Below, in pieces: positions 21,197-34,323 of a stretch of DNA of 63,021 nt. Each line of letters begins with the position of its first letter. Positions within the stretch are counted from its first letter, which is position 1. The notes beneath the pieces are model-generated. The model was not told where the DNA came from and did not search any database. It saw only the letters and a list, made by a program, of their open reading frames with translations. The DNA comes from an uncultured Hyphomicrobiales bacterium. Its GTDB lineage: Bacteria; Pseudomonadota; Alphaproteobacteria; Rhizobiales; Xanthobacteraceae. A program made the translations under genes and the position numbers. The stretch is from positions 1 to 63,021 of the forward strand of contig CAISIV010000021.1 of assembly GCA_903885555.1 (NCBI GenBank), written 5' to 3'.

Positions 21197-21889
21197 ATGG
21201 ATTCTGTCAGGATATGCATGAAAAGACGCCATTCGGAGAAATCGGAGTTGGGCGAGACGCGTAAAGGGTCGGAGCCGCCAGGGCAGGGCAACGTGCCGCG
21301 CCCCCGCGACTCCAACCTCAAGATCGCGATCGTCGACGAAAGCCCCATCCGCGCCGCCATCCTCGAGGATGGCTTGCGCGAAGCCGGTTTTACGTTGGTC
21401 GAGCGCATCGCCGAGACCCGCAATCTGCTGGCGCGCGTCTATGCGATGGACCCCGACGTCATCCTGATCGATCTGGAAAGCCCGAGCCGCGACGAACTGG
21501 AGCAGATGTTCCAGGTCAGCCGCGCCGTGAAGCGGCCGATCGCGATGTTCGTCGATCAGAGCGATACCGCCTCGATCCAGGCGTCAGTCGACGCCGGCGT
21601 GTCGGCCTATATCGTCGGCAATCTGCAGAAAGACCGCATCAAGACCATTCTCGATCTGTGTATTTCGCGCTTCAACGCCTTCGCGCGGCTGCAGGGCGAG
21701 CTCGATCAGGCCAAGGACGCCTTGCAGGAACGCAAGATCATCGATCGCGCCAAGGGCGTGCTGATGAAGGCCAAGAAACTGAGCGAGGAGGACGCTTACG
21801 CCCTCCTGCGCAAGACCGCCATGAACGAACACAAGAAAATCGCCGAGATCGCCCAATCCGTCGTTACTGCCGCGGAGCTGTTCAAATGA
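21197..21889 (+). CDS. nasT: ANTAR domain response regulator NasT (nitrate-responsive antiterminator)
   Basis: A 230-residue protein with a pseudo-receiver domain (KIAIVDESPIRAAILEDG from about residue 42) and a C-terminal ANTAR RNA-binding domain (RAKGVLMKAKKLSEEDAYALLRK, then KKIAEIA; about 170-225). In Azotobacter, Bradyrhizobium and Paracoccus NasT binds hairpins in the nas mRNA leader and prevents termination when released from NasS by nitrate or nitrite. The first about 40 residues are extra for the family; ATG 21218 is a possible alternative start. It overlaps nasS by ATGA, and the expected RNA target lies at 23240-23336. Confidence 0.92.
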   Translation: MDSVRICMKRRHSEKSELGETRKGSEPPGQGNVPRPRDSNLKIAIVDESPIRAAILEDGLREAGFTLVERIAETRNLLARVYAMDPDVILIDLESPSRDELEQMFQVSRAVKRPIAMFVDQSDTASIQASVDAGVSAYIVGNLQKDRIKTILDLCISRFNAFARLQGELDQAKDALQERKIIDRAKGVLMKAKKLSEEDAYALLRKTAMNEHKKIAEIAQSVVTAAELFK

Positions 21890-23076
21890 CCGAAACGAAA
21901 CTTCGCATCGGTTTCATTCCGCTGGTCGACGCAGCGGCGCTGCTGGTGGCCGTCGACGGCGGCTTCACCAAGGCGCAGGGCCTCGACGTCGAATTGGTTC
22001 GCGAAGTGTCGTGGTCGAACGTGCGCGACAAGCTCAATCTCGGGCTGTTCGACGCCGCGCATCTGCTGGCACCGGTCGCGGTGGCGTCCAGCCTCGGCAT
22101 CGGCCATGTCCGCGTGCCCATCATAACGCCCTTTAATCTGGGCATAAATGGCAATTCCATCACGGTGTCACCGCGGCTCTACGCCGACCTTTCCGCGGCC
22201 GCCGATGGTGACATCGCCGATCCACTCGTTTCGGCGCGCGCGCTGGCGCGGTTGATTTCCGAACGCAAGAATCGCAATGCCGAACCGCTGACCTTCGGCA
22301 TGACGTTCCCGTTCTCGCACCACAATTACCAGCTGCGCTACTGGATGGCCGCCGCCGGCATCGATCCGGACGAAGACATACGTCTTGTTGTCCTGCCCCC
22401 GCCTTACATGGTCGACAGTCTCGCTAGCGGGCATGTCGATGGCTTCTGCGTTGGCGCGCCGTGGAATTCGGTGGCGGTCGATCTTGGCGTCGGCCGCATT
22501 CTGCATTTCGGTTGCGAGATTCAGTCGCGCGTGACCGAAAAAGTTTTCGCGGTGCGCGAACGCTGGGCTACCGAACATCCCGATACGCTCAACGCCCTCA
22601 TACGGGCGCTGGCCGCGGCCGCCGATTATATCGAGGACAAACAAAATCTCGACGCGGTGTCGACGATCGTCGGCAAGCGGCTCGGCGTCGAATCGGAAGT
22701 GATCATGCGCACGCTCACCGGCGTGCTGAAGGTGGCGACCGACGGTACGACGCGCAGCAGCGACCGCTACATCCTGATCGGCCGCAACAACGCGATGCGT
22801 CCCGATCCGGTTCAGGCCGCCTGGATTTATGCGCAGATCGTGCGCTGGGGGCAGGCGCCGCTGTCGGAAGAACTCCTCAACCTCGCCCAAGCAGTGTTCC
22901 GCGCCGATCTGTTCGACGCGGTCATCGGTGCTGCGCCGTCCCCGAACGGCAGCGAACCGAACGATGGCATTGGCGCCTTTGTCGGCCCCAATTTCGTGCC
23001 GGACGACATCGCCGGACACCTTGCATCCTGGCGTCCCAGGCGCTCGGAACGGCCCCGTTTGTCGATTGTCCGTTAA
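21886..23076 (+). CDS. nasS: NasS nitrate/nitrite sensor (CmpA/NrtA family, cytoplasmic)
   Basis: A 396-residue periplasmic-binding-protein-fold protein without a signal peptide, the mark that separates NasS from the exported NrtA receptor. It starts directly with the fold (LRIGFIPLVDAAALLVA) and contains the ligand-site segments FGMTFPFSHHNYQLRYWMAAAG and GFCVGAPWNSVAV shared with NrtA. NasS holds NasT inactive and releases it on binding nitrate or nitrite. ATG 21886 overlaps the nasT stop. An inverted repeat, CGCTGC (23083-23088) and GCAGCG (23100-23105), just beyond the stop may end this transcript. Confidence 0.92.
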   Translation: MTETKLRIGFIPLVDAAALLVAVDGGFTKAQGLDVELVREVSWSNVRDKLNLGLFDAAHLLAPVAVASSLGIGHVRVPIITPFNLGINGNSITVSPRLYADLSAAADGDIADPLVSARALARLISERKNRNAEPLTFGMTFPFSHHNYQLRYWMAAAGIDPDEDIRLVVLPPPYMVDSLASGHVDGFCVGAPWNSVAVDLGVGRILHFGCEIQSRVTEKVFAVRERWATEHPDTLNALIRALAAAADYIEDKQNLDAVSTIVGKRLGVESEVIMRTLTGVLKVATDGTTRSSDRYILIGRNNAMRPDPVQAAWIYAQIVRWGQAPLSEELLNLAQAVFRADLFDAVIGAAPSPNGSEPNDGIGAFVGPNFVPDDIAGHLASWRPRRSERPRLSIVR

Positions 23077-23207
23077 TTATTGCGCTGCACAAATTAGTCG
23101 CAGCGTGCGTCGGTGCTGGGCATAAACCAAGTTTCGCCGCTGCGGGGCCTGCAAGCTCATTTTTCCTAACTCATTGATAAAGCTTTGATTTGTTCTAATC
23201 CGCTGGC

Positions 23208-23225
23208 TTGGCACGACACTTGAAT
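23208..23225 (+). promoter_or_regulatory. Candidate sigma54 (-24/-12) promoter of the nas operon
   Basis: The segment TTGGCACGACACTTGAAT matches the RpoN consensus TGGCACG-N4-TTGC: GG lies at 23210-23211 and TTG at 23220-23222, with the correct 10-bp spacing between the -24 and -12 elements. Only the final C of the -12 element differs (A). Transcription would start near 23235, just before the first leader hairpin. NtrC/sigma54 control of nas operons is known in Klebsiella. The rest of the 5' part of this gap (23077-23207) shows only the 23083-23105 inverted repeat and no gene; no perfect NtrC site was found. Confidence 0.6.
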
Positions 23226-23239
23226 AGAGAAGGCTTGGA

Positions 23240-23336
23240 AGCGCCATAAGGCGCTGAGCCCGACGTCGGGCTGACAGCAATGCCGCTGTCTGGGGAGCAC
23301 GAATGCGTGCGCTTCAGGCTGCGGCTTTTTTGTTTT
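23240..23336 (+). promoter_or_regulatory. nas leader RNA: ANTAR-type hairpin and competing intrinsic terminator
   Basis: Four structures can be drawn. Hairpin A is AGCGCC/GGCGCT around ATAA (23240-23255). Hairpin B is the 16-bp palindrome AGCCCGACGTCGGGCT (23257-23272). Hairpin C is GACAGC/GCTGTC closing the hexaloop AATGCC (23273-23290), with A at loop position 1 and G at position 4, as known for ANTAR targets. The terminator pairs 23282-23292 (GCCGCTGTCTG) with 23315-23325 (CAGGCTGCGGC) around an internal GCACG/CGTGC hairpin (23297-23310) and is followed by a T-rich run (23326-23336). The 5' terminator arm reuses the 3' arm of hairpin C, so the two are mutually exclusive. NasT bound to hairpin C should therefore allow read-through. 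The remaining stretch to 23407 holds the ribosome site for NrtA. Confidence 0.7.
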
Positions 23337-23407
23337 TGGGGCGGGCGACAGATCAGGCGGCGACGGCAGACCGGGTTTCTCGAAACACCAGAAGGACAGT
23401 GGGACCA

Positions 23408-24727
23408 ATGACGATCAAAAAGACAAACGAAGGCAAGATCACGATCAATCGCCGTTCGTTTTTGAAATCCAGCGCCGGCACCGCAGCGTTGCTGGGCGCG
23501 GTCGGCACACAGTTTCCCTTCGGCGCGCACATCGCGCAGGCCGCCGGACCTGAAACGACCAAGGCGATTCTCGGCTACATCGCGCTGATGGATGCTTCGC
23601 CCCTGGTGATCGCCAAGGAGAAGGGCATCTTCGCAAAATACGGCATGCCGGACGTCGAAGTTTCAAAGCAAGCGTCCTGGGGCGCGACGCGCGACAACAT
23701 GGTTCTCGGCGGCGCGGCGAACGGCATCGATGGCGCGCATATTCTGACGCCGATGCCGTACCTCATCTCGGCCGGCAAGGTGACGCAGAACAACGTGCCG
23801 ACACCGATGTACATCCTGGCGCGCCTCAATCTCGATGCGCAGGCCATCTCGGTCGCCAACGAATACAAGGACCTCAAGGTCACCGCCGACGCTTCGCCCT
23901 TGAAGGCCGCCTTCGCCAAGAAGATCGCTGACGGCAAGAAGGTCAACGTGGCGATGACCTTCCCGGGCGGCACGCACGATCTCTGGATTCGCTACTGGCT
24001 TGCGGCCGGCGGCATCGACCCTGACAAGGACGTCGCCACCATCGTGGTGCCGCCGCCGCAAATGGTGGCGAACATGAAGGTCGGCAACATGGACGCCTTC
24101 TGTGTCGGCGAGCCGTGGGGCGAGCAACTCGTCAATCAGGGCTTCGGCTTCTCGGCCTGCAGCACCGGCGAAATCTGGAGCAAGCATCCCGAAAAAGCGC
24201 TCGGCATGCGCGCCGAGTGGGTCGACAAGAATCCGAATGCCGCCAAGGCCCTGCTGATGGCGGTGATGGAAGCCCAGCAGTGGTGCGACAAGCCGGAGAA
24301 CCGCCAGGAGATGTCGGAAATCGTCGGCAAGCGGCAATGGTTCAACGTGCCGGTCGCCGACATCATCGGCCGTGCTAACGGCGACATCAATTACGGCAAC
24401 GGACGCGTCGAGAAGGGAACCAAGCAGTTCATGAAGTTCTGGCAGGACCACGCGTCCTATCCCTTCAAGAGCCATGACACCTGGTTCCTCACCGAAGACA
24501 TCCGCTGGGGCAAGTTCGAAGCCTCCACCGACGTCAAGGGCATGGTCAACAAGGTCAACCGCGAAGATCTGTGGCGCGATGCCGCGAAATCGCTCGGCGT
24601 CGCCGCCGCCGATATTCCGGCAACGTCATCGCGCGGCAAAGAGACGATGTTCGACGGCAAGGTATTCGATCCGGAAAACCCGTCCGCCTATCTCAAGAGC
24701 CTCGCCATCAAGCGCGTCGAAGTCTGA
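23408..24727 (+). CDS. nrtA: Nitrate ABC transporter substrate-binding protein (NrtA, CmpA/NrtA family)
   Basis: A 439-residue receptor with a Tat signal peptide (twin Arg in INRRSFLKSSAGTAALLGA, cleavage likely after AQAA near residue 45). It shares with NasS the ligand-site segments AMTFPGGTHDLWIRYWLAAGG and AFCVGEPWGEQL. It binds nitrate or nitrite in the periplasm and delivers it to NrtB. ATG 23408 is chosen because an AAGGA site lies upstream and the Tat motif follows; an in-frame start at 23303 lies inside the terminator hairpin of the leader. It is the first structural gene of the operon. Confidence 0.92.
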   Translation: MTIKKTNEGKITINRRSFLKSSAGTAALLGAVGTQFPFGAHIAQAAGPETTKAILGYIALMDASPLVIAKEKGIFAKYGMPDVEVSKQASWGATRDNMVLGGAANGIDGAHILTPMPYLISAGKVTQNNVPTPMYILARLNLDAQAISVANEYKDLKVTADASPLKAAFAKKIADGKKVNVAMTFPGGTHDLWIRYWLAAGGIDPDKDVATIVVPPPQMVANMKVGNMDAFCVGEPWGEQLVNQGFGFSACSTGEIWSKHPEKALGMRAEWVDKNPNAAKALLMAVMEAQQWCDKPENRQEMSEIVGKRQWFNVPVADIIGRANGDINYGNGRVEKGTKQFMKFWQDHASYPFKSHDTWFLTEDIRWGKFEASTDVKGMVNKVNREDLWRDAAKSLGVAAADIPATSSRGKETMFDGKVFDPENPSAYLKSLAIKRVEV

Positions 24728-24733
24728 CGCAAC

Positions 24734-24759
24734 CGGGCCGCCCGTTTTCGGGCGGCCCG
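24734..24759 (+). terminator. Strong stem-loop between nrtA and nrtB (attenuator or mRNA stabiliser)
   Basis: A perfect 11-bp stem, CGGGCCGCCCG (24734-24744) with CGGGCGGCCCG (24749-24759), closes a TTTT loop directly after the nrtA stop. No T-run follows, so complete termination is unlikely. Such hairpins after binding-protein genes commonly protect the upstream mRNA and raise receptor over permease levels; that role is inferred here. Confidence 0.6.
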
Positions 24760-24789
24760 ATTACTTCGTTTAACCGGAGCATTCACGCG

Positions 24790-25698
24790 ATGAACATGCC
24801 AGTGGCGAAATCCGAAATTTCGGCGAGCATACCCTCGGCCCCGACAGCGCCCGCCGCTGCCAAAGTCCTAGCCTTGCCACTGAAGCAAACCGCAATGAAT
24901 ACGCGGATGCGCGCCACGCTCGGCAAATTTGCCGCCGCGGTGCTTCCGCCACTGATCATGGTGCTGCTGCTGATGGTGGTGTGGCAGGTGCTGTGCATGC
25001 GCCCCGGCGCGACGCTGCCGGCGCCGACCAAAATCTGGATCGAGGCGCGCGATCTCATCGTCAATCCCTTCTTTGTGAATGGCCCGCAGGACATCGGCCT
25101 TGGCTGGCGCGTGCTGATCTCCTTGCAGCGCGTTGCCATGGGCTACGGGCTGGCCGCCGTGATCGGCATTGCGCTCGGCACGCTGATCGGCCAATCGGTC
25201 TGGGCAATGCGCGGCCTCGACCCGATCTTCCAGGTGCTGCGCACGATCTCGCCGTTGGCCTGGCTGCCAATTTCGCTGGCGGCATTTCGCGACAGTCAGC
25301 CGTCGGCGATCTTCGTCATCTTCATCACCTCGATCTGGCCGATCATCATCAATACCGCTGTCGGTATCCGCAATATTCCGCAGGACTATCGCAACGTCGC
25401 CGCGGTGCTGCGGCTCAATCCGTTCGAGTTCTTCACCAAGATCATGATCCCGTCGGCGGCGCCCTACATTTTCACGGGCTTGCGCATCGGTATCGGTCTG
25501 TCGTGGCTCGCGATCGTTGCGGCGGAAATGCTGACCGGCGGTGTCGGCATCGGCTTCTTCATCTGGGACGCCTGGAATTCCTCGCGGCTGCCTGACATTT
25601 TCGTCGCTCTCGCCTACATCGGCATCATCGGCTTCGTGCTCGATCGCATCGTCGCGGGCATCGCTTCCGTCGTCACCCGTGGCACCGCTGCCAATTAA
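24790..25698 (+). CDS. nrtB: Nitrate ABC transporter permease (NrtB)
   Basis: A 302-residue membrane protein with about six predicted helices (first at about 52-78, PLIMVLLLMVVWQVLCM). The BPD_transp_1 EAA-type loop is visible (DYRNVAAVLRLNPFEFFTKIMIPSAAPYIFTGLR region near 200-235). Length and the ~50-residue N-terminal extension match NrtB/NasE-type permeases. ATG 24790 is chosen because an upstream in-frame ATG (24571) lies within nrtA. It forms the channel driven by the ATPase encoded 11 nt downstream. Confidence 0.92.
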   Translation: MNMPVAKSEISASIPSAPTAPAAAKVLALPLKQTAMNTRMRATLGKFAAAVLPPLIMVLLLMVVWQVLCMRPGATLPAPTKIWIEARDLIVNPFFVNGPQDIGLGWRVLISLQRVAMGYGLAAVIGIALGTLIGQSVWAMRGLDPIFQVLRTISPLAWLPISLAAFRDSQPSAIFVIFITSIWPIIINTAVGIRNIPQDYRNVAAVLRLNPFEFFTKIMIPSAAPYIFTGLRIGIGLSWLAIVAAEMLTGGVGIGFFIWDAWNSSRLPDIFVALAYIGIIGFVLDRIVAGIASVVTRGTAAN

Positions 25699-25709
25699 GG
25701 AACGAGAAC

Positions 25710-26504
25710 ATGACGCACTATTGCAGAATCGATCACGTCGATAAGTCGTTCAAGCGCGGCAACACCGAAACTCTCGTCCTCAAGGACATCACGCTTGAGG
25801 TGGAGAAGGGCGAGTACGTTTCTATCATCGGTCACTCGGGCTGCGGAAAATCGACGCTGCTCAACATCGTGGCGGGGCTGACGCCGGCGACCAATGGCGG
25901 CGTCATTCTCGAAGGCCGTGAAGTCAACGAGCCGGGACCGGACCGGGCCGTCGTGTTCCAGAACCACAGCCTGCTGCCGTGGCTGACCGTGTACGACAAC
26001 GTTCGTCTCGCCGTCGACAAGGTCTTCGGCCAGACCAAGTCCCGCGCCGAGCGTGACGCCTGGACGTTGCACAATCTCAATCTCGTGCAGATGACGCATG
26101 CCAAGGACAAGCGTCCGTCGGAAATTTCCGGCGGCATGAAGCAGCGCGTCGGCATCGCCCGCGCTCTGGCCATGGAGCCGAAAGTCCTGCTGCTCGACGA
26201 GCCGTTCGGCGCGCTCGATGCGCTGACGCGTGCGCATCTGCAGGACACCGTGATGGGCTTGCATCAGAAGCTCGGCAACACGGTGATGATGATCACACAC
26301 GACGTCGACGAGGCCGTGTTGCTGTCCGACCGCATCGTGATGATGACGAATGGTCCGGAAGCCCAGATCGGCGAAATCCTGAGCGTGCCGCTGATGCGGC
26401 CGCGCAAGCGGCTTGAGCTGGTGGCAGACGCTGCCTTCCTCAAGTGCCGCCAGCGCGTGCTCGAATTCCTCTACGAGCGGCACCAGTACGTCGAGGCGGC
26501 CTAA
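25710..26504 (+). CDS. nrtD: Nitrate ABC transporter ATP-binding protein (NrtD/NasD type)
   Basis: A 264-residue ABC ATPase with a full set of motifs: Walker A GHSGCGKST (near residue 42), the Q-loop VVFQNHSLLPWLTV, signature ISGGMKQRV (near 142), Walker B LLLDEPFGALDA and the H-loop MITHDVDEA. The LLPWLT sequence after the Q-loop is typical of the nitrate/sulfonate/taurate group. It powers the NrtAB importer. The gene follows nrtB by 11 nt and precedes the globin gene by 36 nt, all in one operon. Confidence 0.92.
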   Translation: MTHYCRIDHVDKSFKRGNTETLVLKDITLEVEKGEYVSIIGHSGCGKSTLLNIVAGLTPATNGGVILEGREVNEPGPDRAVVFQNHSLLPWLTVYDNVRLAVDKVFGQTKSRAERDAWTLHNLNLVQMTHAKDKRPSEISGGMKQRVGIARALAMEPKVLLLDEPFGALDALTRAHLQDTVMGLHQKLGNTVMMITHDVDEAVLLSDRIVMMTNGPEAQIGEILSVPLMRPRKRLELVADAAFLKCRQRVLEFLYERHQYVEAA

Positions 26505-26540
26505 GCGGCGAGATCTGTCCGGGCTTTATGGAGTGGGGCG

Positions 26541-26963
26541 ATGACACCGACACAAGTCGAGATGGTTCAGAAGAGCTTTTCGAAAGTAGCGCCGATCGCC
26601 GACCAAGCGGCGGCCTTGTTCTACGACCGGCTGTTCGAGATCGCGCCTGACGTGAAGCCGCTGTTTCGCGGCGACATGAAGGAGCAGGGCAAGAAATTGA
26701 TGGGGACGCTTGCGGTGGTCGTCGGCGGCCTGACCAGGCTCGAGACGATTTTGCCGGCGGCGTCGGGGCTGGCGAAGAAGCACGTCGCTTATGGTGTCGA
26801 TGCCACGCACTACGCCCCGGTCGGCGCGGCGCTGCTGTGGACCTTGGAAAAGGGCCTCGGACCCGACTGGACGCCTGAACTCGCGGCGGCCTGGACCACG
26901 GCCTATGCGACTTTGTCCGGATACATGATTTCCGAAGCCTACGGTCCGGGTACTCCGGCATGA
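26541..26963 (+). CDS. Single-domain bacterial globin (Bjgb-like)
   Basis: A 140-residue globin without the FAD/NAD reductase domain of flavohaemoglobins. The proximal haem His can be placed at His81 (AKKHVAYGV). The sequence TQVEMVQKSFSKVAPIADQAA is typical of the bacterial haemoglobin N-terminus. In Bradyrhizobium diazoefficiens the homologous bjgb lies in the nitrate-assimilation operon and helps detoxify NO formed during nitrate assimilation. Here it overlaps the FAD reductase gene by ATGA, the same neighbourhood, and that reductase may re-reduce it. Nitrosative protection is inferred from this parallel. Confidence 0.9.
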   Translation: MTPTQVEMVQKSFSKVAPIADQAAALFYDRLFEIAPDVKPLFRGDMKEQGKKLMGTLAVVVGGLTRLETILPAASGLAKKHVAYGVDATHYAPVGAALLWTLEKGLGPDWTPELAAAWTTAYATLSGYMISEAYGPGTPA

Positions 26964-28219
26964 GCGAACCGCTCGTCATCGTCGGCAATGGCATGGCCGC
27001 GGCGCGGCTGGTCGAGGAACTGAGCAAGCGTGCGCTCGGCCGCTATTCCATTGCCGTGATTGGTGAAGAGCCGCAGCTCGCCTACAATCGCGTTTTGCTG
27101 TCGTCGGTGCTGGCGAAGGAAGTCTCGCACGGCGACATCGAGCTCAAGCCCGCAAAATGGTGGCGTGATCGCGGCGTGACGCTGCTGTACGGGCAGAGCG
27201 TCGCTTCGATCGACGCCGACATTCGCCGCGTCCGTCTCGCCAATGGCGCGACGCTGCCGTTCACACAATTGGTCCTCGCCACCGGATCACGGCCGATACG
27301 TCTCAATGCGCCGGGCATGGATCTGCCGGGCGTCATGACCTTCCGCGATCTTGGTGACGTCGCGGCCATTGAAGCCGCGGCGGCCAACAAGGCCAAGGTC
27401 GTTGTTATCGGCGGTGGCCTGCTGGGTCTTGAAGCCGCCTATGGGGTGGTCAAGGCCGGCGCCCAGGTTTCGGTCATTCATCTGATGGATCGGCTGATGG
27501 AACGCCAGCTCGATGCGCGGGCGTCGGAAATGTTGCGCGCGCAGATGATGAGCAAGGGGATTCCCGTACATCTCAATGCCGAAACGGCGGGTATTCGCGG
27601 CGACAAACAGGTCCGTTCCGTCCTTCTCAAGGACGGCCGCGAGATCGAAGCCGATCTCGTCGTCGTCGCAGCAGGCATTCGTCCCAATGTCGATTTGGCT
27701 CGGACGGCCGGGCTCGATATCGGCCGCGGCATTGTCGTCGACGACCACATGCAGACCAGCAAAGCGGGTATTCACGCGATCGGCGAATGCGCCGAACATC
27801 GCGGCATTGCTTATGGCTTGGTGGAGCCGGCCTATGAACAGGCGCGTATTCTCGCCATGCGTCTGTCCGGAGACACGGGGAATTACCCCGGCAGTGTGCT
27901 GGCGACGAACCTCAAGGTATCCGGCGTGAATGTCTTTTCGGCGGGAGATTTCCTCGGCGCCACCGGCACCGAGCCAATCGTGCTCTCCGATCCGGGCCTG
28001 GGCACATACAAGAAGCTGGTTATCGCCGATAACCGTCTCGTCGGCGCTGTGCTGTTCGGCGATACCGCCGACGGCCTCTGGTATCTCGAATTGATCCGCA
28101 CTGGCGTGTCGATCGATACGTTCCGCGACGACCTGATGTTCGGCCGCGCCATGGCCGAACGCTCGATGCCGAAGCAACCCAAGCCTGGCGTTGTGCTTGC
28201 CAAAAAACTGGCGGCATGA
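26960..28219 (+). CDS. FAD-dependent NAD(P)H oxidoreductase (NirB N-terminal-like; Flp/NasB-type)
   Basis: A 419-residue pyridine-nucleotide-disulfide-type reductase: FAD motif VGNGMAAARLVEEL at the start, ATGSRPI near residue 110, NAD motif VIGGGLLGLEAAYG near 148, and the FAD-ribityl segment IHAIGECAEH near 270. It matches the flavin part of NAD(P)H-nitrite reductases but lacks their sirohaem and Fe-S domains. In B. diazoefficiens the equivalent Flp lies beside the globin and feeds electrons to nitrate reductase or the globin. Which partner is used here is not decided by sequence. Confidence 0.88.
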   Translation: MSEPLVIVGNGMAAARLVEELSKRALGRYSIAVIGEEPQLAYNRVLLSSVLAKEVSHGDIELKPAKWWRDRGVTLLYGQSVASIDADIRRVRLANGATLPFTQLVLATGSRPIRLNAPGMDLPGVMTFRDLGDVAAIEAAAANKAKVVVIGGGLLGLEAAYGVVKAGAQVSVIHLMDRLMERQLDARASEMLRAQMMSKGIPVHLNAETAGIRGDKQVRSVLLKDGREIEADLVVVAAGIRPNVDLARTAGLDIGRGIVVDDHMQTSKAGIHAIGECAEHRGIAYGLVEPAYEQARILAMRLSGDTGNYPGSVLATNLKVSGVNVFSAGDFLGATGTEPIVLSDPGLGTYKKLVIADNRLVGAVLFGDTADGLWYLELIRTGVSIDTFRDDLMFGRAMAERSMPKQPKPGVVLAKKLAA

Positions 28220-28226
28220 GGCCGTC

Positions 28227-29990
28227 ATGTCGAGCGACTTCACCCCGGACCAGAAACGCTACCTCGAAGGTTTCGCCTCCGGTCTGACGGCGGCGCGGGC
28301 CGCGCGCGGTCAGCTTCCGGCTGGTGTTGCTTCAAGTGAGCCGGTCGGGCCGGACGCCATTCATATCAAGGCGCAGGACCGCACGGTCGCGGCCGGCGGC
28401 AAGCTGTCCGACCAGGAAAAGATCAAGCGCGAGCAGCATCCGTTCGATGCTTACGACCGCCTCAAGAGCCAGGCGAAGAACAACGAAGCGCCGAAGCCGG
28501 CCGATAATTTCCGCTGGCGCTATTACGGGCTGTTCTACGTCGCACCGGCGCAAACGTCGTATATGTGCCGGCTGCGTATTCCCAACGGCATCGTCACGCA
28601 CTGGCAGATGGCTGGCCTGGCCGACCTGGCCGACAAATACGCCCACGGCTACAGTCACGTCACGACGCGCGCCAATCTGCAGATGCGCGAGATCGAGCCG
28701 AAAGATGCCGTCATCTTCGTTGAATCTTTGATGGATCTCGGCCTCGGCTCGCGCGGCACCGGCGCTGACAATATCCGCAACGTCACCGGCACGCCGACGG
28801 CCGGCATCGATCCACAGGAATTGCTCGACACGCGGCCTTTTGCCCGTGCGTGGCATCACCACATTCTCAACGAACGCGCGCTGTACGGCCTGCCGCGCAA
28901 GTTTAACGTCGCATTCGACGGCGCGGGGCGCATTCCGGTGCTGGAAGATACCAACGACATCGGGTTCCAGGCGGTCGAGTTGAAGGACGGCTTCGGTCCT
29001 GAGGCCGGCATCTACTTCCGCCTCGCACTGGGTGGCATCACCGGGCACCGGGACTTTGCCAAGGATACCGGCGTCATTGTCAAGCCGGACGAAGCGACGC
29101 AGGTCGCCGACGCCATCGTGCGCGTCTACATCGAGCATGGCGATCGTACCGACCGCAACAAGGCGCGGCTCAAATATGTGCTGGACGCCTGGGGGCTGGA
29201 AAAATTAATCGCGCATGTCGAGGAAAAGCTCGGCCGTGCGCTGCTGAAAGTGCCGGCGGATGCGTTGCTGCCGCGCCCCATCTACAATCGCTCCGCTCAC
29301 ATCGGCGTGCATCCGCAAAAGCAGCCGGGCCTCAACTGGATCGGCGTCGTGCTGCCGGTGGCGAAGCTGACGTCGGCGCAGATGCGCGGGCTCGCCAAAA
29401 TCGCCGGCGATCTCGGCGATGGCGATATCCGGCTGACCGTCTGGCAGAATTTACTGATGTCCGGCGTGGCCGACGACAAAGTCGCGCTCGCCAAGGCCGC
29501 TGTCGATGCGCTGGGTCTTTCGACCGAAGCGACGTCGATTCGCGCTGGTCTCGTTGCCTGCACCGGCGCGACCGGATGCCGCTTCGCCGCCGCGCACACT
29601 AAAGAGCAGGCCGAGGAAATAGCGCAGTGGTGCGAGGCGCGCGTCGAGCTCGACGGGCCGGTCAATATTCATCTGACCGGTTGCCATCATTCCTGCGCGC
29701 AGCATTACATCGGCGATATCGGCATGATCGCCTGCAAAGTCGATGTCGGCGAGGATGCCGATGCGGTCGAGGGCTATCACATTCTTATTGGCGGCGGCTT
29801 CGGTACCGAGGCGGGGCTGGGCCGGGAAATCTACCGCGACGTCAAGGCGCCTGACGCGCCGCGCACGATCGAGCGCATGCTCAAGGGCTATATGGCCAAC
29901 CGCGCGGGCCGCGACGAAACCTTCCTGACCTTCTCGCGGCGGCACGAAGTCGAGACGCTCAAGACGATGTTCGAGACGGGGGCCGCATGA
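28227..29990 (+). CDS. nirA: Assimilatory nitrite reductase, NirA-type (sirohaem and [4Fe-4S])
   Basis: A 587-residue nitrite/sulfite reductase family protein with two ferredoxin-like half-domains and two sirohaem halves. The coupled [4Fe-4S]-sirohaem cysteines can be placed at CTGATGC (near residues 445-451) and GCHHSC (near 486-490). The NIRNVTGTP-type motif reads DNIRNVTGTP near 186. It performs the six-electron reduction of nitrite to ammonium in the cytoplasm. ATG 28227 is taken because an upstream in-frame codon lies within the reductase gene. Its N-terminal about 20 residues resemble those of the next protein. It overlaps that gene by ATGA. Confidence 0.93.
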   Translation: MSSDFTPDQKRYLEGFASGLTAARAARGQLPAGVASSEPVGPDAIHIKAQDRTVAAGGKLSDQEKIKREQHPFDAYDRLKSQAKNNEAPKPADNFRWRYYGLFYVAPAQTSYMCRLRIPNGIVTHWQMAGLADLADKYAHGYSHVTTRANLQMREIEPKDAVIFVESLMDLGLGSRGTGADNIRNVTGTPTAGIDPQELLDTRPFARAWHHHILNERALYGLPRKFNVAFDGAGRIPVLEDTNDIGFQAVELKDGFGPEAGIYFRLALGGITGHRDFAKDTGVIVKPDEATQVADAIVRVYIEHGDRTDRNKARLKYVLDAWGLEKLIAHVEEKLGRALLKVPADALLPRPIYNRSAHIGVHPQKQPGLNWIGVVLPVAKLTSAQMRGLAKIAGDLGDGDIRLTVWQNLLMSGVADDKVALAKAAVDALGLSTEATSIRAGLVACTGATGCRFAAAHTKEQAEEIAQWCEARVELDGPVNIHLTGCHHSCAQHYIGDIGMIACKVDVGEDADAVEGYHILIGGGFGTEAGLGREIYRDVKAPDAPRTIERMLKGYMANRAGRDETFLTFSRRHEVETLKTMFETGAA

Positions 29991-31621
29991 CGCAGAACAT
30001 GCCGCCGCCGATCCCGTCGCTGGTGCCGGAAACCGCGCCGTTCTCCGAGGACCAGCGCGCCTGGCTGAATGGCTTCTTTGCGGGGCTGATTGCGCTCGAC
30101 GGCTCGGGCATCACGCCGCTGTCAACCGATCAGGGTGCGGCGCTGATGTCGGGCGTGGCCGGCGTCAAGACCGATCAAGAAGAAGATGATGGCGGCGCGC
30201 CGTGGCACGACCAGACTTTGCGGCTGGCCGAGCGCATGAAGCTCGCCGACGACAAGCCGCTGCGTTGGAAGATGATGGCGGCGATGGCGCAGCAGGACTG
30301 CGGCCAGTGCGGCTACGACTGCAAGAATTACTCCGGCGCTATCGTGTCCGGAAAAGAAGAGCGGCTGAATTTGTGCGTGCCGGGCGGCAAGGAAACCGCC
30401 CGCATGGTCAAGAAGCTCGCCGAAGAACTCAAGAGCGCGCCGGCTGCGGCGGCGCCTCAGACTGGGGTCGAACCGGCCATCGTGCCTGCGCCCGCAAATC
30501 AAGCCGCGCCCGGCACGTCGCGTGACAATCCGGCCATAGCGACGGTTTTGTCGCGCACGCTGCTCAACAAGCAGGGCTCGGAAAAGGAAACCTGGCACGT
30601 CGAATTCGATCTCTCGGAATGTGGGCTCGACTATACGGTCGGCGATGCCTTCGGCCTGTTCCCGTCGAACGATCCGGCGCTGGTCGAGGCGGTGATCAAA
30701 GCGCTTGGTGCGCCGGCGGATTTCCCGATCGGCGGCCGAACGCTACGCGAATGCCTGACAGACGGCGTCTCGCTGTCACCGGCACCCGACATGCTGTTCC
30801 AGTTGTTCTCGTACATTACCGGTGGCGACCGCCGGGCGAAGGCGCGCGCGCTGTCGGCTGGCGAGGATCCCGACGGCGATGCTGCGACGCTCGACGTGCT
30901 CGGCGCAATTGAGAAATTCCCCGGCGTGCGGCCGGACCCTGAGGCCTTTATCGAGGCGCTCGATCCGCTGCAGCCGCGGCTTTATTCGATCTCGTCGTCG
31001 CCCAAGGCGAAGCCAGGCTGCGTTTCGCTCACCGTAGATACGGTCCGCTACCGGATCGCCAACCGCGACCGCCTTGGCGTTTGCTCGACCATGCTCGCCG
31101 AGCGTATCGAGCCAGGCGCGTCGTTGAAGGTCTATGTGCAGAAGGCGCATGCTTTCGGGCTTCCGGCCGACCCGAACGTGCCGGTCATTATGGTCGGCCC
31201 CGGCACCGGTGTCGCGCCGTTCCGCGCCTTCCTGCACGAACGCCAGGCGACCAAGGCGCCGGGCCGCAACTGGCTGTTCTTCGGCCACCAGCGGTCGAGC
31301 ACGGACTTCTTCTACGAAGACGAATTGAAGGCAATGAAAGACGCCGGCGTTTTGACGCGTCTGTCTCTCGCCTGGTCGCGCGACACCGGGCAGAAATTCT
31401 ATGTGCAGGACCGCATGCGTGAAGTGGGCCGTGACCTCTGGTCGTGGCTCGCTGACGGCGCGCACTTCTATGTATGCGGCGACGCCAAGCGTATGGCCAA
31501 GGATGTCGAACTAGCGCTGGTCGATATCGTTGCGCAGCACGGCGTACGTAGCCCGGCCGAAGCGGCGGCCTTCGTTGCCGACTTGAAGAAGAGCGGCCGC
31601 TATCAGCAGGACGTGTATTGA
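29987..31621 (+). CDS. Fe-S/FNR flavoprotein, sulfite reductase alpha subunit-like electron donor
   Basis: A 544-residue protein. Residues 1 to about 40 match the N-terminus of NirA. A short Fe-S domain (CGQCGYDC near 104-111, then LNLCVPGG near 129) takes the place of the flavodoxin domain of CysJ. From about residue 185 a CysJ/FNR module follows: FAD motif RLYSISSSP, GVCST, NADP motif GPGTGVAPFRAF, FGHQRSSTDF and YVCGDAKRMAKDV. It should take electrons from NADPH and pass them through an Fe-S cluster, most likely to NirA or the nitrate reductase. It overlaps nirA (ATGA) and the nitrate reductase gene (TGATG). Confidence 0.87.
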   Translation: MTQNMPPPIPSLVPETAPFSEDQRAWLNGFFAGLIALDGSGITPLSTDQGAALMSGVAGVKTDQEEDDGGAPWHDQTLRLAERMKLADDKPLRWKMMAAMAQQDCGQCGYDCKNYSGAIVSGKEERLNLCVPGGKETARMVKKLAEELKSAPAAAAPQTGVEPAIVPAPANQAAPGTSRDNPAIATVLSRTLLNKQGSEKETWHVEFDLSECGLDYTVGDAFGLFPSNDPALVEAVIKALGAPADFPIGGRTLRECLTDGVSLSPAPDMLFQLFSYITGGDRRAKARALSAGEDPDGDAATLDVLGAIEKFPGVRPDPEAFIEALDPLQPRLYSISSSPKAKPGCVSLTVDTVRYRIANRDRLGVCSTMLAERIEPGASLKVYVQKAHAFGLPADPNVPVIMVGPGTGVAPFRAFLHERQATKAPGRNWLFFGHQRSSTDFFYEDELKAMKDAGVLTRLSLAWSRDTGQKFYVQDRMREVGRDLWSWLADGAHFYVCGDAKRMAKDVELALVDIVAQHGVRSPAEAAAFVADLKKSGRYQQDVY

Positions 31622-34323
31622 TGAACGCGCCCGCGCAGCATCCGCCCGCCGTGCGCACGACGTGCCCCTATTGCGGCGTCGGCTGCGGCGTTCTGGCCAA
31701 GCCCGACGGCCGCGGCGGCGCGGTGATTGCCGGCGATCCCGCACATCCCGCGAATCTCGGGCGGCTGTGCTCGAAGGGCTCGGCGCTGGGCGAGACGCTG
31801 GGGCTTGAGACCCGTCTGCTTGATCCATCGCTGCGCGGCGCGGATGGTGCGCTGACGAAAATGTCCTGGGACGCTGCGCTCGATAAAGTCGCGCAGGGCT
31901 TCGCCGACACCATTGCCAGGCACGGGCCGGACTCGGTGGCGTTCTATCTGTCGGGTCAGCTGCTGACCGAGGACTATTACGTCGCCAACAAGCTGATGAA
32001 GGGCTTCATCGGTTCGGCCAATGTCGACACCAATTCGCGGCTGTGCATGTCGTCGACTGTTGCCGGTCATCGCCGTGCCTTCGGAACGGATACCGTGCCG
32101 GGCAGCTATCAGGATCTCGACAGTGCCGATCTGCTGATCCTCGTCGGCTCCAATGCGGCCTGGTGTCATCCAGTGCTGTATCAGCGGATGATCGCCAACA
32201 AGCGCGAGCGCGGCGCCAAGATAATCGTGATCGATCCGCGCCGAACGGCGACAGCTGAGGAGGCCGATCTGTTTCTCAGCGTCGCGCCCGGCATGGACAC
32301 CGCGCTTTTTTCCGGTCTGCTGGTGCATCTCGCCGACACGCTGGCGCTTGATTATCTATATATCGACGCCCACACATCCGGCCTTACCGAGGCGCTGGTG
32401 CGCGCGCGTGAAATCGCGCCGGACTTGATGGCGAACGCGAAAGCTACAGGCTTGGCTGAATCCGATGTCGCACGGTTTTTCCATCTGTTCCGCACGACGC
32501 CGAATGTCGTCACCTGCTTCTCGCAAGGCGTAAACCAGTCGGCGCAGGGCACCGACAAGGTCAGCAGCATCATCAACTGTCATCTTGCCACCGGCCGCAT
32601 CGGCAAGCCTGGCATGGGGCCGTTCTCGCTGACCGGCCAACCCAATGCGATGGGCGGACGAGAGGTTGGCGGGCTCGCCAATCAGCTCGCCGCACATATG
32701 AACTTCGGTCATGAAGACGTCGACCGCGTCGGCCGGTTCTGGAACGCGCGTGCCATGGCGCAGCGCGAGGGTCTCAAGGCCGTGCAGATGTTCGAGGCGA
32801 TCGAGCGCGGCGAGATCAAGGCGCTGTGGGTGATGGCGACCAATCCGGCAGTATCGCTGCCGCGTGCCGCGGCGATGCGTGCCGCATTATCGAAACTCGA
32901 CGTCTTCGTCGTCTCCGAGAACGTGCTGTCCAACGACACCGTCACCGCCGGCGCGCAGATCCTGCTGCCGGCCGCGGCCTGGGGCGAAAAGGACGGCACC
33001 GTCACCAATTCGGAACGCTGTATCTCGCGGCAGCGGCCGTTTCTGCCGCTGCCGGGCGAGGCGAAGCCCGACTGGTGGATCGTCACGCAGGTGGCGCGCC
33101 GCATGGGCTTTACCGAGGCTTTCAGTTTCGATTCCGTTGCATCGATCTTCCGCGAGCACGCCGCGCTGTCGGCCTTCGAGAACGAGGGAACGCGCGATTT
33201 CGACATCGGTGGGCTGATGCAGATCGACGATGAGGCGTTCAACGGCCTCGATCCGGTGCAGTGGCCGGTGCGAAAAGGTGAAGCGCGCGGCGAAAGTCGT
33301 TTCTTTGCCGAGGGCGGCTTCTTCACGCCCGACCGCAAGGCGCGGATGATCGCGCCGGAATTGCCGAAGCCAAGCGCGGTGCTGTCGAACGAATTTCCGT
33401 TGCGGCTCAATACCGGCCGCGTGCGCGATCAATGGCACACCATGACGCGCTCGGGCTTGAGCCCGCGGCTCGGCGCGCATCTGCCGGAGCCCTTCGTTGA
33501 AGTGCACCCCGCGGACGCCGAAGCGTTGGGCCTCGCCAATGGCGGCTTCGCACGCCTGACGTCGCCCTATGGCGCCTGCGTGCTCAAGGTCGCGGTCAGC
33601 GAAGGCCAGCAGCGCGGCTTGCTGTTTGCGCCGATCCACTGGAGCAATGAGACGGCGTCGTCGGCGCGCGTCGGCGACATGGTCACGCCGGCCAACGATC
33701 CATATTCCGGGCAGCCCGAAGCCAAGGCGACGCCGGTGTCCATTGCGCCGGTCGCTTTCGCCTATCGCGGTTTTGTACTGGCGCGCGCGCCGCTCGCCTT
33801 GCCCGCCGACGCATGGTGGTCGAAGGTTGCGATTGCGAGCGCGACAGGCTGGTTGCTGGCGAGCAATGACAGTCCGGAAACCTGGCGCGAACACGCGCAA
33901 GGTCTGTTCGCCGGCGCCGAGCTTGCGGAATATGTCGACGCGCCGCGCGGCAGCTATCGCGTGGCGGCCTTCGCTGACGGCCGGCTGACCGGCGCGCTGT
34001 TCATCGGTCCCGCCGAAGCCGCGCCACATTGGGATACGGTGAAGGCTTTGTTCGAGGCCGAGAGCGTCGGCGACGCGCAGCGTCGCGGTTTGTTGTCGGG
34101 AAAATCGACCGACGGTCTGGCCGATCCCGGTCCGGTGATCTGCGCCTGCTTTGGCGTCGGCCTCAACGTCATCCGCGCGGCGCTCGACAGCGGCGCTGCG
34201 GCAAATGTCGAGGACATCGGCAAGGCTTTACGCGCGGGCACCAACTGCGGCTCGTGTTTGCCGGAATTGAAGAAGATCGTGAGCCAAAAGGTTGAGCATG
34301 AGCGTGTCGCGCAAACCGTCTGA
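31621..34323 (+). CDS. nasA: Assimilatory nitrate reductase catalytic subunit (NasA/NasC)
   Basis: A 900-residue molybdenum enzyme. The N-terminal [4Fe-4S] motif is TTCPYCGVGCGV with a later CSKGS (residues about 14-55). The Mo-bisMGD domains include NSRLCMSSTVAGH, GSNAAWCHPV and the GQPNAMGGREVGG region near 342. A C-terminal BFD-like [2Fe-2S] domain (ICACFGVG and GTNCGSC, about 838-885) replaces a separate electron-transfer subunit. It reduces nitrate to nitrite in the cytoplasm; no Tat signal is present. ATG 31621 overlaps the flavoprotein stop. cysG begins inside its last 26 nt. Confidence 0.93.
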   Translation: MNAPAQHPPAVRTTCPYCGVGCGVLAKPDGRGGAVIAGDPAHPANLGRLCSKGSALGETLGLETRLLDPSLRGADGALTKMSWDAALDKVAQGFADTIARHGPDSVAFYLSGQLLTEDYYVANKLMKGFIGSANVDTNSRLCMSSTVAGHRRAFGTDTVPGSYQDLDSADLLILVGSNAAWCHPVLYQRMIANKRERGAKIIVIDPRRTATAEEADLFLSVAPGMDTALFSGLLVHLADTLALDYLYIDAHTSGLTEALVRAREIAPDLMANAKATGLAESDVARFFHLFRTTPNVVTCFSQGVNQSAQGTDKVSSIINCHLATGRIGKPGMGPFSLTGQPNAMGGREVGGLANQLAAHMNFGHEDVDRVGRFWNARAMAQREGLKAVQMFEAIERGEIKALWVMATNPAVSLPRAAAMRAALSKLDVFVVSENVLSNDTVTAGAQILLPAAAWGEKDGTVTNSERCISRQRPFLPLPGEAKPDWWIVTQVARRMGFTEAFSFDSVASIFREHAALSAFENEGTRDFDIGGLMQIDDEAFNGLDPVQWPVRKGEARGESRFFAEGGFFTPDRKARMIAPELPKPSAVLSNEFPLRLNTGRVRDQWHTMTRSGLSPRLGAHLPEPFVEVHPADAEALGLANGGFARLTSPYGACVLKVAVSEGQQRGLLFAPIHWSNETASSARVGDMVTPANDPYSGQPEAKATPVSIAPVAFAYRGFVLARAPLALPADAWWSKVAIASATGWLLASNDSPETWREHAQGLFAGAELAEYVDAPRGSYRVAAFADGRLTGALFIGPAEAAPHWDTVKALFEAESVGDAQRRGLLSGKSTDGLADPGPVICACFGVGLNVIRAALDSGAAANVEDIGKALRAGTNCGSCLPELKKIVSQKVEHERVAQTV

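Follow-up and report, generated by a model that had tools for sequence, protein, structure and literature searches.

The window, i.e. the whole stretch of 63,021 nucleotides analysed here, carries a nitrate assimilation cluster on its plus strand, preceded by the genes of a NasS-NasT system. nasT (21197-21889) encodes a protein with a receiver-like domain (Pfam Response_reg, 37.8 bits) and an ANTAR RNA-binding domain (73 bits), the two domains looked for in the NasT of such a system. Its stop is overlapped by nasS (21886-23076), which encodes a substrate-binding-protein-like putative nitrate sensor (Pfam NMT1_2, 238 bits). The name nasS was given from neighbourhood and resemblance, and nitrate sensing is predicted; the family and the position of the gene both fit a NasS-NasT system. 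The first gene that would be controlled encodes an nrtA-like nitrate ABC transporter substrate-binding protein (23408-24727; Pfam NMT1_2, 356.9 bits; TAT_signal, 21.7 bits, slightly below the cut-off of 22.7) and is followed by a nitrate ABC permease (24790-25698; TIGR01183 ntrB, 308.6 bits) and an ATPase (25710-26504; TIGR01184 ntrCD, 345.2 bits), both above the cut-off. The remaining assimilation genes (26541-34323) encode a globin, a NirB-N-like reductase, NirA and CysJ-like and NasC-like proteins; the NirA family (1013 bits) and PRK06214 (905 bits) were matched above the cut-off, the NirB and NasC models below theirs. The cluster downstream of the leader is thus one for nitrate assimilation, and nrtABC are probably cotranscribed with the assimilation genes behind them. 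Among the matches listed, the nearest named relatives of nrtA were from Hyphomicrobiales (Rhizobiales), and the upstream region of a MAG labelled Pseudolabrys sp. recurs in a genome that belongs to the genus of the window (L002 and L084).

NasT is related to EutV (chain 6wsh; phmmer, 1.8e-20). Five residues of EutV, R142, K149, E160, Y164 and M172, have been assigned roles in RNA contact (PMC8934654), and NasT has R179, K186, E197, Y201 and M209 in the aligned positions (hand count on the alignment, offset 2); on this alignment, all five contact residues have kept equivalents in the NasT of the window. A single ANTAR match was obtained from the draft genome (95% complete, 320 contigs), namely the NasT of the nas locus. 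In the longest nasT frame, some 38 to 40 residues precede the receiver-like domain (21197-21310), and since the matches to EutV and Rv1626 start at residues 42 to 46, the true start of nasT may lie downstream of 21197.

Between the end of nasS at 23076 and the ATG of the nrtA-like gene at 23408 lies an intergenic region of 331 bases with three hairpins and a terminator, all on the plus strand; nasT-nasS are thus indeed just upstream of the leader, as the first-pass annotation had stated. Hairpin A (23240-23255; AGCGCC-AUAA-GGCGCU) is the 5'-proximal one and occupies the P0 position of relatives. Hairpin B (23257-23272; AGCCC-GACGUC-GGGCU) has a hexaloop with G at position 1 (G1) and G at position 4 (G4) and is closed by a C:G pair. 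Hairpin C (23273-23290; GACAGC-AAUGCC-GCUGUC), which had been described before with this loop and its A1 and G4, was borne out by direct reading and by the predicted fold, with A1 at 23279, G4 at 23282 and a C:G closing pair; its A1/G4 hexaloop (23279-23284) overlaps the intrinsic terminator (23282-23337). The latter had been given as 23282-23292 pairing with 23315-23325 before a T-run, which is right apart from one U.U mismatch and a stem that extends further: 23282-23286 pair with 23321-23325 and, beyond the mismatch, 23288-23295 with 23312-23319, an inner hairpin follows at 23297-23310, and the T-rich tail (23326-23337) reads TTTTTTGTTTTT from 23326.

RNA folding predicted hairpins A, B and C for 23235-23292, and none of 200 shuffles folded as well. 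For 23235-23336, the minimum free energy fold kept A and B but had C replaced by the terminator, and again no shuffle out of 200 was as good. Hairpin C and the terminator share 23282-23290 and are therefore mutually exclusive, as had been claimed. Forcing hairpin C in place of the terminator cost 6.5 kcal/mol (-47.2 versus -53.7 kcal/mol), a preference for the terminator that answers the check by folding with and without hairpin C that the first-pass annotation had proposed; at this cost, hairpin C should have to be held in place for readthrough. The combination is hardly one of chance: the two strands of the window together have 27 ANNGNN hairpins with C:G closing and four or more Watson-Crick pairs, hairpin C is the only one of them that overlaps a terminator, and dinucleotide shuffles of the 331-base region gave the hairpin-terminator combination in 4 and any such six-pair hairpin in 6 of 3,000 cases. 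A simple terminator scan did not flag the nas-leader terminator, presumably owing to its loop limit of 8 or to the interrupted stem, and Rfam gave no match at the gathering threshold over the window; near the leader there was one chance-level match (E 3.9) on the opposite strand at 23350-23373. Hairpin A was also considered as P1, the first hairpin of a two-hairpin ANTAR target, and rejected: its loop AUAA (drawn as a hexaloop, CAUAAG) has neither A1 nor G4, and the corresponding loop in the related leader L006 has 5 nt.

Upstream of the hairpins, a sigma54-type promoter (TGGCACGACACTTGAA, 23209-23224, plus strand) contains all 11 fixed letters of the pattern used. This pattern was defined after inspection of relatives, and the leaders were trimmed at their best match to it, so that the position of the promoter is not an independent observation. 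In shuffles, 11 letters were reached in 0 and 10 letters in 23 of 2,000 cases; at their best place, 141 of the 149 leaders of relatives described below scored at least 9 of 11, and P1 loops sit 51 to 75 bases downstream of the pattern. A sigma54 gene is present in the same genome. The -12 element of the window promoter, TTGAA, differs from the sigma54 consensus, TTGC, and a simple sigma70 scan found no promoter at the leader. Counting from the -24/-12 letters by the usual rule, the RNA would start near 23235. Hairpin A would then begin at about the sixth base, leaving no additional hairpin upstream of it in the RNA.

Leaders of relatives were collected from the best 80 loci of at least 591 nrtA relatives in named genomes, from 21 of 43 genomes of the genus and from 167 of 296 genomes of the family, the last contributing 30 loci (11 already in the set) and 60 further upstream regions. 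From 181 upstream regions, 28 that had an exact 80-base stretch in common with another, L001 and 3 that were too short were removed, leaving 149 distinct regions, and a script recognised two hairpins in 76 of them. The search for P2, the second hairpin of the target, required A or G at position 1, G at position 4 and limited letters at positions 5 and 6, and counts of P2 letters are biased by this conditioning. For P1, the loop letters were left free; a hexaloop, at least four pairs and a set distance from P2 were required, and C:G closing was favoured. Two leaders (L083 and L123) have a P1 with A1 and G4 that the script missed and are therefore uncounted. A T-run was found by pattern in 69 of the 76 leaders, and among the other 7, L034 has one that the pattern overlooked. 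The alignment comprised 59 of the 69; L109 was omitted, as were nine leaders with a bulged or shifted P1 or a long linker (L008, L013, L075, L110, L112, L121, L122, L157 and L159). A covariance model of P1 and P2 (the P1P2 model) was built from 53 of the 76 leaders, including that of the window.

In its commonest form, the leader of relatives is a standard two-hairpin ANTAR target, for example with GGUCC-AAUGAC-GGACC (P1) immediately 5' of CAGC-AACGCC-GCUG (P2). In the 59 aligned leaders, 97.6% of the cells of the P1 stem were paired and four of its five pairs had two-sided changes. The covariation score over P1 and P2, 0.245, was reached by none of 500 shuffles (0.136) and did not exceed 0.071 with the partners slid, and cells with two-sided changes numbered 25, versus 6.7 in shuffles (0 of 500). 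The picture was the same in a second alignment of 53 leaders. P2 was nearly invariant; its top two pairs were constant, and the fifth pair was missing in 38 of 58. The five core pairs of the terminator, GCCGC/GCGGC, were formed in 59 of 59 leaders and a sixth in 15, with no two-sided change and no more covariation than in shuffles; since this core hardly varies, conservation is shown for it and not covariation. RNAalifold selected P1 and the terminator and not P2 on this alignment, which fits termination as the state without bound protein, and the terminator was within the predicted minimum free energy fold of 66 of 68 leaders folded (exceptions, L104 and L153). The covariation analysis of homologous leaders that had been suggested for the window thus came out in favour of the layout, with P1, P2 and the terminator in relatives, a covarying P1 and a conserved terminator core. 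Hairpin C is the P2 and, by position and covariation, hairpin B the P1 homologue of the two-hairpin ANTAR target. Of the observation that neither A nor B shows a clear A1/G4 hexaloop, the part on A stands; B has a drawable hexaloop, GACGUC, that keeps G4 and the C:G closing pair and lacks only A1 (G at 23262). The window does contain a variant of the two-hairpin target, as had been proposed, but the reason is a different one: B is a P1 homologue without A1 and not an unrelated hairpin.

When the genome of the window was searched with the P1P2 model, the nas leader was the best place, with 40.2 bits and an E value of 1.2e-4 (150 of 5,262 first-look candidates scored). The next best (L183, 25.3 bits, E 0.12) falls within a reading frame and was taken for a chance match; four further matches had E values of 0.7 to 6.8. 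Judged by these scores, the genome has a single convincing target of the P1P2 type. Of the 43 genomes of the genus, 26 had a match at an E value of 0.01, and the P1 of these leaders had A1 and G4 in 24 and G1 in the window and in the genome of L006.

The letters at positions 1 and 4 of the P1 loop behaved differently. Position 4 was G in 75 and C in 1 of the 76 leaders, the C being that of L109 (CAUCCG), whose P1 has neither A1 nor G4. Position 1 was A in 67, G in 4 (the window, L006, with the loop GAUGUC, L156 and L180) and C in 5 (L051, L109, L117, L120 and L178). A recount used 75 leaders, with L109 dropped and L157 set by hand; we retained the 76 for P1 because the closed loop that was the ground for dropping L109 would equally exclude the window. 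The losses of A1 were distributed over the genus codes g1, g17, g26 and g43 and thus go back to more than one event. G1 together with G4 also occurs in 5'-proximal P0 hexaloops (L024, L025, L138 [GACGAA] and L149 [GAUGAU]), beside loops of the AACGAC type. By the P1 and P0 tallies, what is fixed is G4 with the C:G closing pair, and G is allowed at position 1. Pairing between positions 1 and 6 (G-U counted) was possible in 20 of 75 P1 loops versus 3 of 75 P2 loops, the latter from the conditioned search. Self-complementary or nearly self-complementary P1 loops that have A1 and G4 are AUCGAU (L110, L112, L121 and L159) and AUUGAU (L157 and L177); that of L110 was predicted to be closed by A1-U6.

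In P2, A1 was found in 74 of 75 leaders, with A or G allowed by the search, and A2 in 66 of 75 without any such conditioning. These letters lie outside the terminator stem, and their retention argues against a plain attenuator, i.e. a real terminator that is controlled by something besides NasT or by nothing. That hairpin A is a strong hairpin would suit such a device, but the only ANTAR match of the genome adjoins its only convincing ANTAR-type target, and we consider this explanation improbable.

The G1 form of P1 is shared with L006, which is from another species and a separate assembly. Over the promoter and leader, 117 of 123 letters (95%, insertions in L006 uncounted) were identical between the two, versus 89% in nasT, 86% in nasS, 86 to 88% in nrtA and 67% in the DNA directly before the promoter. 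No letter differs in the stems of A, B and C; the two leaders differ just 5' of the putative RNA start, in the loop of A (where L006 has one insertion), in the loop of B, at the terminator tip and in a single pair of the terminator stem, changed from U-G to U-A. With the leader at 95% and the genes at 86 to 89%, the G1 form looks maintained, and the comparison gives no sign of decay of hairpin B. It also speaks against an error in the assembly, which the 320-contig draft state of the window genome might bring to mind: GAUGUC stands at the same place in the separately assembled L006, and G1 recurs in L156 and L180, so that a spurious change from A1 to G is most improbable. Among L002, L003, L005, L006 and L007, L006 was closest to the window in nasT, nasS, the leader, the permease, the ATPase and nirA (window 21311-29990). 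The body of nrtA, however, was closer to L003 (89%) than to L006 (86%), and this may reflect recombination inside the operon. An NrtA tree made with a quick method left the window and L006 in an open fork, not resolved as sisters, and required at least seven changes of P1 state; it was not used for dating the loss of A1.

Other leader types were seen among the relatives. In 34 leaders of L031 to L081 (e.g. L033, upstream of 5001), which we call the Rhizobiaceae type, a 5' hairpin with the loop AACGGC or AAUGGC (the feature used for selection) is followed by a middle hairpin, seen by eye, and a last hairpin of the form GAC-hexaloop-GUCGC that has A1 and G4 in 34 of 34. The loop-to-loop distance is 46 to 51 nt and exceeds the linkers that EutV tolerates. 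The NasT equivalent of EutV Tyr164 was Phe in 26 of 26 proteins that go with a Rhizobiaceae-type leader and Tyr in 29 of 30 others (one unreadable). The NasT proteins with Phe form one clade, so that the cases are not independent, and a coordinated change of protein and RNA is possible. Twelve leaders (L063, L079 [named Bradyrhizobium], L155, L158, L161 to L164, L167, L170, L173 and L176) have a single A1/G4 hexaloop hairpin near the RNA start (loops AUUGAA in 5, AUUGUA in 4, AUUGAU in 2 and AUCGAU in 1) and no P2 found by the script, and 10 of the 12 lack a TTTT run. In the Ancylobacter-type leaders L019 to L022, L028 and L151, P1 and P2 were kept, but no TTTT run follows them within the stretch read. 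Three ANTAR-like hairpins in series, with an A1/G4 P0 before P1 and P2, were present in L012, L015, L022, L136, L143, L144 and others of the Xanthobacter/Ancylobacter type.

We propose, with a probability of about 0.83, that the leader is a NasT antitermination switch of the nitrate assimilation (nas) operon and a variant form of the dual-hexaloop target already known, one whose P1 lacks A1. The anatomy and folding energies, the low chance expectation, the unique target, the covariation of P1 and the NasT residues support this reading. The absence of A1 from P1 together with the tetraloop predicted below, the linker of 0 nt between B and C, the P1 of L109 without A1 and G4, the miss by the terminator scan and the lack of an Rfam family above threshold speak against it. 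The sole genomic ANTAR match, the contact residues, the layout in relatives and the covariation of P1 leave antitermination by NasT through hairpin C, as first suggested in the earlier annotation, the best explanation. NasT binding, the response to nitrate, the RNA start and the recognition of hairpin B, with its G1, through G4 are what we infer from the DNA. RNA polymerase would start at around 23235 at the sigma54-type promoter. Without nitrate, NasS would hold NasT, the 3' arm of hairpin C would pair with 23312-23325 and the terminator would halt the polymerase at the T-run. When nitrate is present, NasT would be free to meet hairpin B (P1, the recruitment hairpin, with G1 and G4) and then hairpin C (P2, with A1 and G4); by keeping hairpin C shut, it would allow transcription to continue into nrtABC and the reductase genes.

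What hairpin B contributes is less certain. ViennaRNA gave a probability of 0.97 for pairing of G1 with C6 in its loop, which leaves a tetraloop where alignment with the P1 of 58 relatives gives a hexaloop with G4 and C:G closing; opening the pair would cost 2.2 kcal/mol. NasT might thus act via hairpin C alone, with the G1-C6-capped hairpin B as an unbound spacer or stabiliser. P2 is indeed intact in leaders whose P1 hexaloop is, as judged by eye, not drawable (L010 and L100) or weak (L179), or is devoid of A1 and G4 (L109); EutV binds P1 and P2 singly, and the minimal site has been redefined as one hexaloop (PMC8934654), and NasR is reported to bind P2 alone at ~12 µM versus ~1 µM for both hairpins (PMC7496416). 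On the other hand, hairpin B keeps G4 and the C:G closing pair, its stem shows compensatory changes among relatives and is the same in the window and L006, deletion of P1 ablated induction by EutV (PMC3369931), and the EutV dimer was concluded to need contact with each hexaloop to prevent termination (PMC8934654). We regard an unbound hairpin B as possible but rather doubtful. Within the antitermination switch proposed above, NasT may open the loop of B and use it for recruitment with G1 and G4, towards which the conservation of B leans, or the switch may be carried by P2 alone, towards which the predicted closed loop leans.

By its published definition, the two-hairpin ANTAR motif has A1 and G4 in each loop (Ramesh 2012, PMC3369931). 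Like the eut, nasF and amiE leaders of that paper, the leader of the window has adjacent hairpins of at least three pairs (B and C), an A1/G4 P2 that overlaps an intrinsic terminator, C:G closing pairs and an encoded ANTAR protein; what sets it apart is a P1 with G1 in the place of A1 and a loop that can close. The linker also differs: it is 0 nt with a six-pair P2, and short in the aligned relatives too, versus 5 to 12 nt in the eut genes of Enterococcus faecalis, and cutting the linker to 3 nt already lowered induction by EutV drastically (PMC3369931). NasT is taken to be under the control of NasS, and EutV under that of phosphorylation. In Paracoccus denitrificans, nasT-nasS, a leader with hairpins and nitrate assimilation genes follow in the same order, the nasA leader is bound by NasT (PMC3795266) and growth on nitrate was lost when a hairpin of this leader was mutated (PMC5424462). 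In the window, the first genes are those of a nitrate ABC transporter, and binding of NasT to the leader, demonstrated in Paracoccus, is predicted. Bradyrhizobium diazoefficiens, an alphaproteobacterium of the same order, has a NasT regulon under antitermination (PMC6759348), with several candidate targets as reported there versus the one convincing P1P2 target in the genome of the window. Control of nas leaders by NasS-NasT is therefore already established; what is new is the P1 without A1 and the tally of positions 1 and 4. We found no description of P1 variants without A1 among the open-licence papers listed for ANTAR and NasT leaders.

Genetics and structure give different pictures of what A1 and G4, and P1 and P2, do. 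In the genetics, all four letters matter; in E. faecalis, induction fell when A was changed to U at position 1 of P1, and binding was lowered by mutations at either position, 1 or 4 (Ramesh 2012, PMC3369931). In the structure of EutV, in contrast, G4 stacks on Tyr164, A1 is without specific contacts, its proposed role being to prevent pairing across the loop, and Met172 was proposed to exclude smaller loops such as tetraloops (Walshe 2022, PMC8934654). Natural P1 loops that have G4 in 75 of 76 leaders and lack A1 in 9 of 76 are ready RNAs to settle these roles. They also suggest that target searches that fix A1 in both loops, like the published seed (PMC3369931), can miss or down-score real targets. 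We suggest tentatively that P1 of the window is now a loop-closed hairpin without A1 and that NasT antiterminates either via the P2 hexaloop only or via a G1/G4 loop that is pried open. If so, nature would have provided with this leader a test of whether, as proposed, A1 serves only to keep the loop open and G4 is the contact; across leaders, P2 would be fixed and its upstream partner a relaxed, interchangeable hairpin.
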